From: Candidatus Geocrenenecus huangii
GTDB lineage: Archaea; Thermoproteota; Nitrososphaeria_A; Caldarchaeales; Wolframiiraptoraceae
Assembly: GCA_023268155.1 (NCBI GenBank)
Contig: JALNKM010000007.1
Span: forward strand, 1-64,000
Length of the DNA stretch: 64,000 bases
Direction: 5' to 3'
Shown here piece after piece: positions 12,979 through 42,359 of the stretch. Position 1 is the first letter of the stretch. Each line of letters opens with the position of its first letter. Both the position numbers and the translations under genes were made by a program. The notes beneath the pieces were generated by a model. That model made no database searches, was not told the DNA's origin, and saw only the letters and a program-made list of their open reading frames with translations.

Positions 12979-13414
12979 GCAGGAAATATTTTGTCAGCAT
13001 ACCGATAAAAGTTAAGTGATGAAGAGATGCGATTAATGTAGAATTGGCAAGGAAAGAGCAAATATTGTTGATAGTGTTGCTAACATTGGTTAACAGTAAT
13101 GCCGAAGGAATGTCGAAGGTAATCGCCTCTTTGGATGAAGATGGGAAATCAGTCAGGAACTACATATAAGGTTAACCGCAATAGCCACATCTTCACTGGA
13201 ATAAATTTACGGTATTACCTTAAGCATTGAGAAGAGGATATAGAATCCCAGAAGTCCGACCTCGAATGAAATTCTACTATTAACCTATGTATATAAGGTG
13301 TAAAAGCATCAATATGGTGGAAAACACCAAAAGACCTTATAACCCGGACTAAAACTTTTTTATGCAGCGTTAAGTATTATAAGTCTTGAAATAATGAAAA
13401 ACGAGTGAGATGGA
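12979..13414. other. Intergenic region with promoter of the surface-protein gene
   Basis: About 435 bases with no supportable gene. A 41-codon plus-strand frame starting at a TTG near 13044 and ending at 13169 contains ILLIVLLTL and could be a degraded fragment. AT-rich TATA-like stretches at about 13346-13358 and 13373-13383 lie upstream of the next gene. Confidence 0.4.
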
Positions 13415-15286
13415 TTGTATCGTAGACTAGCAAGTCTCTGCACAGCTTTAATAATCTCCATAATCTTCCTAGCATATATTATCAGCATCGGGTACACGGT
13501 CTCACAATATACAATCGACTCAAACTATATCGTACCCCTAACCGTAAATGGGGTTGAAGTGCAACCACCAGTTAAAGTGTCTGAAGGAGATACAATATGT
13601 GTAAAAGAAACCATAGTGTATCTACTCCAGAACAAGAGGTTGATATTTAGGGGATGGAATGACGGGGTTAGAGACCAATGCAGAGTAGTGAAAGGAAATC
13701 ATACAGCGCTATACGATCTAGAAGTCCTATTACAAATATATGCGGAGCCAAAAGCACTGAGAAAGAGTGAATGGGTGAAAGCAGGCACACTTGTTAAATT
13801 AGACTACCCGGAGATCTATCATGAAGATAGGTCGGTAAGATATGTATTCGAGATGTGGAGTGGTGGCGAGACCCCGTTCCAGCCAAATAACGTGATCTTC
13901 GTATCCGAGCCGGCTCGTCTAGAAGCAAGATACGTTAAAGAATATTTTGTTGAGGCTGTAGGTCTAGTAAAGATAAATGGTACAGGATGGTACAGGGATG
14001 GAGAAGTAGCTATCATAGCCACAAAGCCTGTGATCTACTTATCAGATGAGGAGAGATTAGTCTTCACTGGATGGGAGTCTATAGGAGCTGTGCCAGTAAT
14101 CATAAGCAATCCGCAGAACTCTATAATAGTAATAAACGTTAAAGGACCATACATTTTAAGAGCAAACTATGAAAGACAGTATCGAGTAGAGGTAACGAGT
14201 CCTAAAGGCGTATTATTTAAAGGATGGGTTAAGGATGGTGAAACAATCAGGATACAGGCAGACCCAATAATACAGTTGCTGGAAGATACGCGGCTGAGAT
14301 TTGTTGAATGGAGTTTAACCGATCTACCGAAGGTACCGGATGTGACTCTTCAAGTCCATAAACCATACAATTTTACAGCAATATATGTCAGACAATACTA
14401 TCTATCAGTTGATTCCCAGTATGGTGCAGCAGGTGAAGGATGGTATGATGAAGGAACATTTGCGGTTGTCAGAGCAAATCCTCAGCCTCCATCCAATGTC
14501 ATGATAAATAGAAAACTTGTTGGATACTCTGGAGATTGCGGATACGATTGCCAGCACGATAACGGTGTAGCAATGGTTAAGGTCGACTCGCCAAAGAGTA
14601 TTAGAGCTATTTATACAACCGAGCCGAACCTACTAACAATAGGGATAATTACGGGTATAGGTGGAGCTCTAGTAGCAGTATACGCCCTAACAGGTAAGAA
14701 GAAGCCTGAAGAAGCTAAGTTAAAACTAGAGGAAGCCTTGGAGAGGGAGACGAAGAAGGAAATGGTGTATAGTGCAGATCCATCCAGAGCATTATTTAGG
14801 TGTACTGAATGTGGAGCAATGGTGAAAGGTAGGGAGAAAGCACTCAAACATGTTAGAAAACATAGCTACAAGCATCCTGTAATGGAGTATGTAGCATTAG
14901 AAGAGATCGCTGAACCCTTGGATGAGAGGACGGCGCTACTTTGGACGAAGGGGTTGAAGCTTAGAATGACTCCGCCAGACCAGTTGACGGTTAAAGAGCT
15001 TGTCCAGCCTGGAGACATAATAAGATACACTGAGATACCTGGAAGACTAAGAGTAGAATCGGTTGAGAAGCATGAGAGATTCGGCCTACCGGTCTTCACG
15101 ATAGTAGCGACTCCGACAGATGATAGTGGGGTAAAACCGTACAGGAGATACATCAATGACATGGTTGCACAGGATGGAAAAATATACTGTATACTTGAAG
15201 AATGTGACTGTCAGGTATACGTAGAGACTCGTGCACCTAGAAATAGGGAGGTTGAAAGAATAGCTCAAACATCTAGAAAAACATAA
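13415..15286 (+). CDS. Surface protein with four beta-repeats, TM segment and cytoplasmic C2H2 finger
   Basis: 623 residues. A signal or anchor helix is at about 7-28. Four repeats of about 72-79 residues follow, each with a W-x-x-x-G segment (EWVKAGT at 119, GWYRDGE at 191, GWVKDGE at 270, GWYDEGT at 342). Repeats end in an A-x-Y pattern (171-173, 250-252, 322-324, 398-400). A second transmembrane helix is at about 405-427. After it comes a charged linker, a perfect C-x2-C-x12-H-x3-H finger (Cys463, Cys466, His479, His483) and a C-terminal domain of about 130 residues that I do not recognise. Topology is therefore probably outside repeats and inside finger. This combination suggests a surface sensor or a link between envelope and nucleic acid, but that is inference. 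Confidence 0.75.
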   Translation: MYRRLASLCTALIISIIFLAYIISIGYTVSQYTIDSNYIVPLTVNGVEVQPPVKVSEGDTICVKETIVYLLQNKRLIFRGWNDGVRDQCRVVKGNHTALYDLEVLLQIYAEPKALRKSEWVKAGTLVKLDYPEIYHEDRSVRYVFEMWSGGETPFQPNNVIFVSEPARLEARYVKEYFVEAVGLVKINGTGWYRDGEVAIIATKPVIYLSDEERLVFTGWESIGAVPVIISNPQNSIIVINVKGPYILRANYERQYRVEVTSPKGVLFKGWVKDGETIRIQADPIIQLLEDTRLRFVEWSLTDLPKVPDVTLQVHKPYNFTAIYVRQYYLSVDSQYGAAGEGWYDEGTFAVVRANPQPPSNVMINRKLVGYSGDCGYDCQHDNGVAMVKVDSPKSIRAIYTTEPNLLTIGIITGIGGALVAVYALTGKKKPEEAKLKLEEALERETKKEMVYSADPSRALFRCTECGAMVKGREKALKHVRKHSYKHPVMEYVALEEIAEPLDERTALLWTKGLKLRMTPPDQLTVKELVQPGDIIRYTEIPGRLRVESVEKHERFGLPVFTIVATPTDDSGVKPYRRYINDMVAQDGKIYCILEECDCQVYVETRAPRNREVERIAQTSRKT

Positions 15287-38632: not shown

Positions 38633-39292
38633 ATGGTTAAATTAAATATCGTTGAGGAGGATGAGAAGTCTATAAAAGTTGAGCTTGAAGGTTTACCGCT
38701 AGCTGTTGCGAATACGTTGAGGAGATTTGTGATAAACGAGGTGCCGACGATGGCTATTGAAGAGATCCTGATAATAGAGAATACCTCTGCTATGCCTAAC
38801 GAGGTTCTAGCTCATAGGCTCTCATTGATACCCTTCATCTCCGATATAGATAGGTACGTGGCCCCCGAGGAATGTGATTGCGGAAGCAAGCTTGGATGTG
38901 AGAAATGTGTCGTAAGGTACGTGGTGAGGGCTGAAGCAGTAGATGAGCCGGTGACAGTCTACTCGAAAGACATTATACCAGAAGACCCCTCAATCACAGT
39001 TAAACCTGTGAGCCCGAAGATACCTATAGTCAAGCTAGCGCCAAACCAGAGAATAGAGATAGAGCTTTACGTCCGGGTGGGGAAAGGTAGAAAGCATGCT
39101 AAATGGCAAGCAGCTATATCTTCCCTATACGAGAAGGATGGTGAACCAGGTAAGAGAATACTATTCATAGAGTCTATAGGATCTCTTCCCCCTAGGAGAA
39201 TACTTAAGGAAGCTGTAAATATCTTTAAGAAGAAAGTACAAGAACTAAACGAGAAGATACTAAGTGATATCGGGGGTCTTAGAGATGGTTAG
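38633..39292 (+). CDS. rpo3: RNA polymerase subunit Rpo3 (D)
   Basis: 219-residue assembly-platform subunit, homologue of eukaryotic Rpb3 and bacterial alpha. N-terminal KVELEGLPLAVANTLRRFVINEVPTMAIEE and HRLSLIPFISD are hallmarks. The inserted domain has Cys81, 83, 89 and 92 (CDCGSKLGCEKC), the position where some archaeal D subunits bind an Fe-S cluster. Overlaps uL18e by 8 bases, the conserved archaeal order. Confidence 0.97.
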   Translation: MVKLNIVEEDEKSIKVELEGLPLAVANTLRRFVINEVPTMAIEEILIIENTSAMPNEVLAHRLSLIPFISDIDRYVAPEECDCGSKLGCEKCVVRYVVRAEAVDEPVTVYSKDIIPEDPSITVKPVSPKIPIVKLAPNQRIEIELYVRVGKGRKHAKWQAAISSLYEKDGEPGKRILFIESIGSLPPRRILKEAVNIFKKKVQELNEKILSDIGGLRDG

Positions 39293-39647
39293 CAGGACAA
39301 AAACTATCAAACCCGGGTTCAGGAATATGATATTGTCGCAGATACCCGTTAAATTAAGGAAGAAGAGATTCTGGAGGAAGATAATCGAAGAAGCTGAAAG
39401 ATCTAGAAGAAGTAGGAGAGTGGTAAATCTATACAAGATAGACCGCTTAACAGATGACGGCGACGTTGTCTACGTGGTCGGAAAAGTGCTCGGCGCAGGA
39501 GAACTGTCTCATCAGCTAACCATATCAGCATTCTCCTTCAGTAAAAAAGCATACGAGAAGATAAAAAAAGCAGGTGGAACGATACTTACCATAGCCGAAT
39601 TCGCTGAAAAATACCCTAATGGAAGAAACGTAAAGATCATAGGATAA
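39285..39647 (+). CDS. rpl18e: Ribosomal protein eL18 (L18e)
   Basis: 120 residues. The ATG at 39285 is chosen over an in-frame GTG at 39264 because GGGGGT sits about 9 bases ahead and the protein then begins MVSRTKTIKPGF. GKVLGAGELSHQLTISAFSF is the family core. In other archaea uL13 follows directly; here a secreted-protein operon intervenes. Confidence 0.95.
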   Translation: MVSRTKTIKPGFRNMILSQIPVKLRKKRFWRKIIEEAERSRRSRRVVNLYKIDRLTDDGDVVYVVGKVLGAGELSHQLTISAFSFSKKAYEKIKKAGGTILTIAEFAEKYPNGRNVKIIG

Positions 39648-40147
39648 CTCGCAAAGCATGGTCTTGAATAAGAATGTCCCGAAACGTTGAGGAGAAAATA
39701 GCTGGAAGATGGTAAGAAAGCACCTTTAATATAAGATGCTTATAGAGGTGTAGCATATTATAGAGAATGCTTCGGAGTAGCTGTAAACGTTTCTAACTGG
39801 TATATACATAGGAGAAAATTCACGTAACATATTTTACTACAATTTTACCTGAAGACATCGAGAACATTAAAGAATGTGGCCAACTTAGGATGCAATGTAG
39901 AAAAGGATGTGCGGAATAGATCAACAAGAGAAGCTAAGCTTCTGTAAAGATACTGTTAAGTTTCTATATGCATCTCGAAGTAGAGAAAGTAATAAGCCTA
40001 AAGCAATCATGAACGATTTGAAAAGGTCAAGAGATTTTTAGATGAAGATGCAAGCAAACCTGGTGATTATTGAAATAATGTTAACAAGCATGACGAGATA
40101 CGTTTATTAATAGAGTTAACCCTTAAGGAAAGCATAGAGGTGGTTAC
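39648..40147. other. Intergenic region before the secreted-protein operon
   Basis: About 500 bases with stops in all frames and no supportable gene. Lysine-rich fragments in shifting frames between about 39.9 and 40.1 kb suggest eroded coding sequence, but nothing nameable. This is the break point between L18e and the inserted operon. Confidence 0.45.
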
Positions 40148-40558
40148 ATGAGGCGTAGGATATTATTGCTACTCCTATTGACGATCTTGACAGCGGTAGC
40201 AATAGCGTACGCAGCATCGCTCAGTGTAACCGCAGTAAACGAGCTTGGAGCGTCTCAACCAGTCCAAGTAAACTGCCCAGCTCAAGGTTGCACAATTAGT
40301 AGAATAGCGTGGAGATTAACAAGTAGCGCTCCGTATAATGTTGACGCAGCTAGAGTGTACTGGACTGCTACTTCTACTTCTAAAACATATACAGTCTGTG
40401 TAGAACTATACGAAACGGATGCTGGTTCACCAATATCATCCGGATGTACTACCACTCCAGGATCTAATACTAACCCCACAAACGTGGATCTTAATCCAAA
40501 CGTGGATCCAAGGCTCGTTAACTACGTTAGGGTAGTGATAGTTGATGAGACAACTTAA
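40148..40558 (+). CDS. Small secreted beta-rich protein, candidate filament subunit 1
   Basis: 136 residues with a clear signal peptide (RRRILLLLLLTILTAVAIAY, probable cleavage before ASLSVTAVNELG). The mature part is rich in Ser, Thr and Val with beta-strand patterning and four Cys. AARVYW, then YTVCVELYETDAGSPISSG and VDLNPNVD align with the next protein's SARIIW, YNVTVKVSLKDDYGNTISSG and IDLVPDVN, so the two are paralogues. First gene of an operon ending in a signal peptidase. Family unknown; resemblance to TasA/camelysin-type or archaeal bundling-pilus subunits is inferred from size, fold pattern and gene order. Confidence 0.7.
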   Translation: MRRRILLLLLLTILTAVAIAYAASLSVTAVNELGASQPVQVNCPAQGCTISRIAWRLTSSAPYNVDAARVYWTATSTSKTYTVCVELYETDAGSPISSGCTTTPGSNTNPTNVDLNPNVDPRLVNYVRVVIVDETT

Positions 40559-40570
40559 TCGTGGACATCT

Positions 40571-41110
40571 ATGAGGTTTGGACACCTGTCAAGATCCTCC
40601 ATTATTTTTTCTTTCTTGATAATCTCCCTTACAGTAATCTTAGGCATAACACTCTATGAAGCTTACTCCGTATACATATCTCTCCAAGAATCATCCATTC
40701 AACCTCTGCCAAGGAGAACGAGTATACAGTACGTATTCTCAAAACAAGGTTCCTCAAATGTATTTTTTGCAGAGGTAAGAAGTATTTCGCTTTCAACCTC
40801 CGGGACCACCATAACATCGGCCAGGATTATATGGTATAGACGTTTTCCTATTTGGATCGGATATAATGTTACCGTTAAGGTAAGCCTTAAAGATGATTAT
40901 GGAAACACGATATCTTCAGGGACATCAGGAACTGTATGCTATATTGGAAGAGGTCTTGTAACAAGTGATATAGATTTAGTTCCGGATGTAAATATTGACA
41001 GCGTAGCTAGAGTTGAGACCTCAATAGATATAGGTGGCGTATGCTGGGAGCTTCTTTTGACGGTCGAGCCGACTGAATCTATCGATGAGTCTGGGGAGGA
41101 GCAGGCATGA
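40571..41110 (+). CDS. Secreted or membrane-anchored beta-rich protein, candidate filament subunit 2
   Basis: 179 residues. An N-terminal hydrophobic helix (about 9-32) is without an obvious AxA cleavage site, so it may stay anchored. The rest is a beta-rich domain paralogous to the first protein, ending in an acidic tail (SIDESGEEQA). It could be an anchor or cap for the other two. The stop overlaps the next start by 4 bases. Confidence 0.65.
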   Translation: MRFGHLSRSSIIFSFLIISLTVILGITLYEAYSVYISLQESSIQPLPRRTSIQYVFSKQGSSNVFFAEVRSISLSTSGTTITSARIIWYRRFPIWIGYNVTVKVSLKDDYGNTISSGTSGTVCYIGRGLVTSDIDLVPDVNIDSVARVETSIDIGGVCWELLLTVEPTESIDESGEEQA

Positions 41111-41493
41111 GAACGATTATATTAATTCTAGTTCTTCTCTCTATAGCTGTTGCATACTCTGCAACTATCATCGTTACAGAGATATCCGAGATAGGAGGTA
41201 CAGATGCTGTGAAGGTAAGCAAATACAATATTAGAGTTATTAGCATCTCTATAGAAGTCTCAGGCGATGTTTACAATAACCGGATTACCTCGATCACTGT
41301 TAGTGTAGCTTCTTCTCATCCGGGATACTACAACGTTCAAGCAACTGTCATTAGTCGTCAGTGTACGGACGCAACTTCTTGGACAAACATATATCTTGAC
41401 TCTACACCTAGATCTCTTACGAGTAGCCTCTCGAATCAATGTCGTTACACCCCTCCTGGAGCAACAGTTGAAGTAAGAGGTGTTCCCGCTTGA
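41107..41493 (+). CDS. Small secreted beta-rich protein, candidate filament subunit 3
   Basis: 128 residues with a short signal peptide (MRTIILILVLLSIAVAYS) and a mature N-terminus ATIIVTEISEIGGTDAVKV. This parallels ASLSVTAVNELGASQPVQV of the first protein. The body is Ser/Thr-rich with two Cys. Overlaps the signal peptidase gene by 4 bases. Confidence 0.68.
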   Translation: MRTIILILVLLSIAVAYSATIIVTEISEIGGTDAVKVSKYNIRVISISIEVSGDVYNNRITSITVSVASSHPGYYNVQATVISRQCTDATSWTNIYLDSTPRSLTSSLSNQCRYTPPGATVEVRGVPA

Positions 41494-42143
41494 AGACGAA
41501 GCTTCTAGCAATCTTCATCATTACAGTAATAATCTTAACCTCTATTTCGCTGGTCGACGATTTGAGAATGTTCCGTATTGTTTCTCCAAGCATGGAGCCC
41601 GCTGTTCCGGTCGGCTCGCTCGTCATAGTATCTCAAACAGAGCCGATAGAGGTAGGGGACGTCGTCGCGTACGAGCTCGAAGTCTTAGGCAGGAAGTATA
41701 CGGTCGTTCACAGAGTAGTAGACATTGAGGATGGAGTATACATGGTGAAGGCAGACGTAGACGCTTCGGGTCTAGGAGAGAGAGTTGAAGCTGGAAGAAT
41801 TATAGGTAAAGCTGTACTAGTAATCCCCTATCTAGGATACTTGGCTGGAGCATTTATAGCCGTCCCAGCAATAATAATCCTAATCCCAATCATAGGCAAG
41901 AAAGGTGGATTAGGCTTCCCCGCAGCGGCATTCATATCTTTCCTACCATCCGTACTACCATTACAAGGCCTAGCATCTATCCTCGGTAACATATATTTCA
42001 CAACAATCATGGTTGGAGCAGTAATCGTTGGAAGAATAATAGAGCTTAAAGACGAAGATATGGCGGAAATAATCTACACGCTAGCTGCAGGAGTAAGCGT
42101 TGTAAGCATCAACGTACTGGAAGTAGTAAGATGGTTCGCCTAG
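41490..42143 (+). CDS. Signal peptidase I (S26B, SipW-like)
   Basis: 217 residues. One N-terminal membrane helix precedes the catalytic core: V-S-P-S-M-E-P with nucleophile Ser34, TVVHRVV with His74 in place of the bacterial Lys, and an Asp at about 89-91 (KADVD). The C-terminal half has about four further membrane helices. Ser/His-type peptidases of this kind are the archaeal/ER and SipW group. Its coupling to three secreted proteins suggests it is dedicated to them. Confidence 0.88.
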   Translation: MKTKLLAIFIITVIILTSISLVDDLRMFRIVSPSMEPAVPVGSLVIVSQTEPIEVGDVVAYELEVLGRKYTVVHRVVDIEDGVYMVKADVDASGLGERVEAGRIIGKAVLVIPYLGYLAGAFIAVPAIIILIPIIGKKGGLGFPAAAFISFLPSVLPLQGLASILGNIYFTTIMVGAVIVGRIIELKDEDMAEIIYTLAAGVSVVSINVLEVVRWFA

Positions 42144-42320
42144 CAGATCAACATAAATGCAACGATGACATCGTGAACATTTCTTGTAGCAAGAAGGATA
42201 CTTGGTCAATATGGATTAATGGATTAACCTGCATCGATGGTGATGAACAGTTTGCGGCACAGACGTGAAGACGAATATGCCGTCGAGAATATGAACATCG
42301 ATAGCTTCCAAGTCTAATCC

Positions 42321-42328
42321 TTATATAC
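42321..42328 (+). promoter_or_regulatory. TATA box of the uL13-uS9 operon
   Basis: TTATATAC is about 35 bases before the ATG at 42360, giving the ribosomal genes their own promoter downstream of the inserted operon. Confidence 0.5.
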
Positions 42329-42359
42329 AGGCTTCAGTAGAGAACGATTGAAAAAATAA

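Follow-up and report, generated by a model that had tools for sequence, protein, structure and literature searches.

The window, a stretch of 64,000 nucleotides, corresponds to contig C19 of a draft genome of 1.70 Mb (21 contigs, 96.5% complete). It carries a tight operon of four genes, A, B, C and S, the first three encoding secreted proteins and the last a signal peptidase (Table 1). A and B are separated by 12 bases, and B-C and C-S overlap by 4 bases each; the original prediction of this operon was exact in both coordinates and spacing. The operon lies between the genes of uL18e and uL13, which are 2.7 kb apart here, 54-218 bp apart in the other members of the genus (G001-G004) and close to each other in most of the order, and the insertion proposed at this point is therefore real. 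At the same junction, G012 carries a 404-aa MFS-type transporter gene and G016 a gap comparable in size (loci L107 and L108), so insertions may recur at this point in the family.

Table 1. Coordinates of the features of the operon, its surroundings and the distant gene D in the window (the arrow marks the predicted cleavage site).
Feature	Position	Strand	Remarks
Gene A, secreted Ig-like beta-sandwich protein, 136 aa	40148..40558	+	predicted mature start 40214 (AYA↓ASLSV)
Gene B, paralogue of A/C, 179 aa, longer hydrophobic N-terminus	40571..41110	+	predicted mature start 40670 (AYS↓VYISL)
Gene C, paralogue of A/B, 128 aa	41107..41493	+	predicted mature start 41161 (AYS↓ATIIV)
Gene S, ER-type signal peptidase I	41490..42143	+	Ser34, His74; TTG start; extra C-terminal membrane segments
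Gene D, secreted, membrane-anchored repeat protein	13415..15286	+	alone, at the operon site common to G001/G004
Decayed methyltransferase-like gene fragment	39698..39866	+	matches the gene upstream of A in G003
Whole insert, uL18e (39264-39647) to uL13 (from 42360)	39648..42359	+	
Former ABCS position, asparagine synthase to D	12979..13414	.	436 bp
TATA-like TTTATTAATA and GAGGTG ribosome-binding-like motif, upstream of A	40103..40140	+	inferred from sequence

The active-site pattern of S is of the ER type, with an SMEP-type Ser (within SPSMEP) and an HR-type His (within VVHRV), and the protein passes the curated archaeal signal peptidase I model TIGR02228 (52.8 bits, the cut-off being 51.85), as expected of an ER-type signal peptidase I. 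The SipW equivalog model NF046067 gave only 34 bits against a cut-off of 190. A separate housekeeping peptidase was found in 10/10 genomes checked, with the operon present or absent, and S is therefore an extra copy, dedicated by association. A (E<=1e-8) and S (E<1e-9) have an identical distribution, over 10 of the 44 Caldarchaeales genomes, in agreement with the dedicated Ser/His peptidase that had been proposed. We infer that S cleaves the signal peptides of A, B and C.

No family of Pfam or NCBIfam matched A, B or C above its cut-off. Compared with hhalign on the mature sequences only, A and B were related with a probability of 97%, A and C with 84% and B and C with 87%, and several cross-family hmmsearch scores exceeded the best of 2,800 shuffled sequences, clearly for A-B and only marginally for B-C. 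The similarity reported earlier for A and B is thus real, and, as judged from their sequences, the three proteins are paralogues, the kinship of C with A and with B being weaker than that of A with B. All three share the N-terminal motif [small]-[Y/F]-[A/S], followed after the cleavage site by x-x-[I/L]-x-[L/V/I]; the pattern first noticed at the mature N-termini of A and C extends to B. The cleavage sites were positioned by eye on this motif, without a signal-peptide predictor, and the figures for positions -3 to -1 are for this reason partly circular (aromatic at -2 in 25/28 sequences, Ala or Ser at -1 in 28/28). The alternation behind the site is not circular: in the same 28 sequences the residue is strongly hydrophobic at +3 in 28 and at +5 in 25, at +4 in 5 and at +6 in none. 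B had been taken for an uncleaved base with an acidic tail. The acidic tail exists, only here and in G001, and B carries the same cleavage motif as A and C, so that it is probably not an uncleaved base.

A is the most conserved of the secreted genes. G001 and G004 have the operon at the same site, and identity between them is 80% for S, 41% for B, 57% for C and 40% over 65 aa for A; the subunits, which are exposed, thus evolve more rapidly than S. In the alignment of A homologues, cysteines 84 and 100 (residue numbers of A in the window) are present or absent as a pair, which suggests that they form a disulfide.

The search of related genomes showed that the order A-B-C-S recurs in the heat-loving Caldarchaeales. 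Loci of this operon with a named source belong to Candidatus Caldarchaeum subterraneum, Ca. Calditenuis fumarioli, archaeon HR01 and a Calditenuaceae archaeon, and on this basis the window is assigned to the order Caldarchaeales (Aigarchaeota). The arrangement of the genes and their overlaps are kept across three families, with the genes intact, and B and C are both encoded in G034 (L037). The operon meets a contig end in G001, G003, G004 and G031, where its completeness is partial. In three congeners (L032, L033, L031, L138) the draft breaks in or at the operon, in S for G001, between C and S for G003 and in A for G004, and these breaks may reflect strain-level variation. Weak matches to the A profile (L143, L144) in G042, which would have been an eleventh genome, and in G038 proved to be regions of larger unrelated proteins and were discarded. 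Outside the order, family f15 has reduced versions with A, S and D together, arranged as A-S-D in G054 (contig 19) and as S-D-A in G348; G293 is similar, with the frame of D broken.

The protein encoded by D consists of an N-terminal hydrophobic segment or signal, a repeat ectodomain, a transmembrane segment at about 406-424 and a C-terminal tail with a zinc-finger-like CxxC-H-H motif, which would be cytoplasmic in the topology deduced from the sequence. The ectodomain of a homologue gave a weak match to the Divergent InlB B-repeat. D was missed earlier because it lies 25 kb upstream of the operon in this genome. In G003 and G004 it encodes 613-619 aa and follows S directly, overlapping it, and homologues adjoin S also in G028, G027, G030, G034 and G035. 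Moreover, S and D are fused into one protein of 591 aa on contig 26 of G054, behind an A-like gene. This adjacency and the fusion make D the best candidate for an anchor or platform, and a better anchor candidate than B; its role would be that of a membrane anchor.

The operon of G001 follows the asparagine synthase gene and that of G004 precedes an HD-domain gene; these two genes are adjacent in G002 and G003. In the window the arrangement is asparagine synthase, D and HD, without ABCS, and no ABCS remnant was detectable between asparagine synthase and D. The nearest relatives of A (60% identity), B (57%), C (64%) and S (69%) are those of G003, and the nearest relative of D is that of G004 (72%). 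Analysed together, ABCS grouped the window with G003 (support 100/99), and groupings of the window with G004 (p=9.4e-5) or with G001 and G004 (p=0.013) were rejected. The 12 flanking genes, in contrast, grouped the window with G001 and G004 (100/100) and rejected a grouping with G003 (p=6.5e-8).

In G003, ABC adjoins a methyltransferase-like gene, which in G000, G002 and G004 is directly followed by an apparent lysyl-tRNA synthetase gene. The frame-broken fragment upstream of A in the window is identical to this G003 gene at 112 of 173 positions, with a score of 41 against 23 for the best of 1,000 shuffles. The genome's own intact methyltransferase copy was considered as the source of the fragment and discarded, its forward score being 17 against 41 for G003. 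In G003 the S-D block is separated from the lysyl-tRNA synthetase gene by two more genes (L031 9010-10264), which may have come with the same insertion.

Read most simply, these data mean that a G003-like donor supplied ABCS together with some of the adjoining sequence, and that the native ABCS beside D was lost. By these comparisons, the swap is a cassette exchange within the genus in which the native D stayed put, and the mobile or lineage-specific module suggested in the original prediction is supported on both counts. A chimeric join in the assembly is unlikely, considering the native genes on both sides in one contig, the identity to G003 of only 57-69% and the decayed flank.

The mature form of A was modelled with AlphaFold2 from 28 homologues, with a mean pLDDT of 83.1 and a pTM of 0.76; the core, with six long strands, is above 90, and residues 1-10 are below 50. 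A and B were also modelled together as a read-through, which is in frame in the window, with the stop read as Gly and 15 alignment rows. This model presents confident beta domains for both proteins and mature N-termini below 50, with no confident inter-domain contact (pTM 0.44), and strand insertion was seen in neither of the two models. The cores of A and B are modelled with confidence as beta-sandwiches, and the unfolded part is exactly the strand with alternating hydrophobic residues. The free hydrophobic N-terminal strand that had been predicted next to the cleavage site is supported by the alternation in the 28 sequences and by the models, in which an unfolded N-terminus can also be explained as a chain end under a shallow alignment. 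The nearest fold matches, all weak, were Ig-like adhesin ester-bond domains, beta-galactosidase accessory domains and DUF1425, and the predicted fold of A and B is a generic Ig-like one. A viral structure library gave no useful match.

The co-occurrence of A and S, the +3/+5 pattern, the unfolded N-termini, the recurring gene order and the link between S and D support the hypothesis that the operon encodes a strand-exchange surface fibre. The lack of insertion in the A-B model and of a match to known strand-exchanged filaments weakens it, and we place it just on the probable side. A, B and C would be exported through Sec, and S would cut their signal peptides behind the small-aromatic-small motif, freeing the N-terminal strand with its alternating hydrophobic residues. 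This strand would not pack on its own Ig-like sandwich and would instead complete the sheet of a neighbour, giving a fibre. A would be the main subunit, B and C minor parts of the tip or base, and D the membrane anchor or assembly platform beside S. In this species, the ABCS of a congener has displaced the native one, with the native D retained.

Another explanation, which we consider unlikely, is that A, B and C are Ig-like adhesins or ligand-binders of the surface or associated with the S-layer, which S matures and D holds in place and which do not polymerise. The nearest solved folds, generic Ig-like stalk and accessory domains, would suit such proteins, as would a membrane-anchored repeat protein like D. 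However, three short single-domain paralogues with a conserved amphipathic strand at the cleavage site would be unexpected for simple adhesins, and the unfolded state of that strand in the models would be likewise unexpected.

It is more doubtful still that the proteins are true members of the SipW-dependent TasA/AbpA family whose sequences have diverged too far, as the homology originally proposed would require. The gene partnership is of the same kind, an ER-type dedicated peptidase beside secreted beta proteins, and the aromatic residue near the cleavage site and the N-terminal strand also speak for this reading. Nevertheless, hhalign against archaeal AbpA/AbpX-type proteins of the phylum, encoded beside S-like peptidases, gave a probability of 0.2%, and none of TasA, AbpA, AbpX and the threads was among the 50 PDB fold matches listed for each model. 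PDB sequence and profile searches with A, B and C returned weak Ig-like chance matches only, without TasA, AbpA or AbpX. The comparison with TasA and AbpA that the original prediction called for thus yielded weak Ig-like folds in place of a TasA-like jelly-roll, and by the homology and fold tests applied here the proteins do not qualify as members of TasA/AbpA. That unrelated secreted genes were inserted incidentally, the peptidase link being due to chance or decay, can hardly be credited: the operon is patchy and changes position, but its conservation with intact genes in three families already refutes this.

If the strand-exchange fibre is real, it adds another archaeal system of this kind, in a largely uncultured order for which gene lists are the main source on surface structures, and the S-D fusion names its anchor. 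It would also suggest that the pairing of a dedicated ER-type peptidase with an N-terminal-strand fibre arose more than once, or earlier than sequence comparison reveals. The ABCS exchange is a well-resolved replacement of a surface cassette from one archaeal species to another, in which the flank of the donor can still be recognised. A wider proposal, which is possible although we would not call it probable, is that these fibres form a new family in archaea with no kinship to TasA, AbpA or the threads, built from Ig-like donor-strand subunits with a dedicated S beside or fused to D. The exchange of its subunit and peptidase cassette, with the anchor staying in place, would then amount to surface-antigen switching.

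Among known systems, type IV pilins have a class III signal peptide, keep the hydrophobic helix and depend on an assembly ATPase; the predicted site here is a small-aromatic-small one after the hydrophobic stretch, and the operon has no ATPase. Chaperone-usher pilins resemble the subunits in that an Ig-like sandwich carries an amphipathic extension at its N-terminus; no periplasmic chaperone or usher was found in the operons, and the usher is an outer-membrane protein whereas the archaeal cell has a single membrane. The beta subunit of the Sulfolobus threads (Saci_0406) is processed by signal peptidase I and forms a donor-strand fibre (PMC9715654). A beta subunit with processing of this type is predicted here from the genes, and the mature Asp and YYY of the threads are absent from the predicted ASLSV, VYISL and ATIIV. 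Elsewhere in the phylum, the genes of secreted proteins adjoin that of a longer S-like peptidase in classic TasA/AbpA-type operons (L040, L041, L043, L184), and L041 matches the solved AbpX. The bundling pili of AbpA (Pyrobaculum) and AbpX are thus alike in pairing archaeal secreted beta proteins with an S-like peptidase, as at L041, and unlike in that no homology to A, B or C was detected and the signature after the cleavage site differs.

In Bacillus, TasA is matured by the dedicated ER-type SipW, the aromatic residue at P2 hindering the bacterial P-type enzyme (PMC10269814), and an N-terminal donor strand has been proposed for the TasA fibres of tapA-sipW-tasA (PMC9674648, PMC10269814). The system described here differs in having no sequence similarity that we found, a peptidase far below the SipW cut-off, a subunit of about 110 aa predicted to be a small Ig-like sandwich in place of the TasA jelly-roll, and an extra partner, D. 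It is alike in encoding a dedicated ER-type Ser/His peptidase with secreted beta-rich substrates that carry an aromatic P2, and, by this analogy, its gene logic plausibly works like that of the SipW/TasA system.
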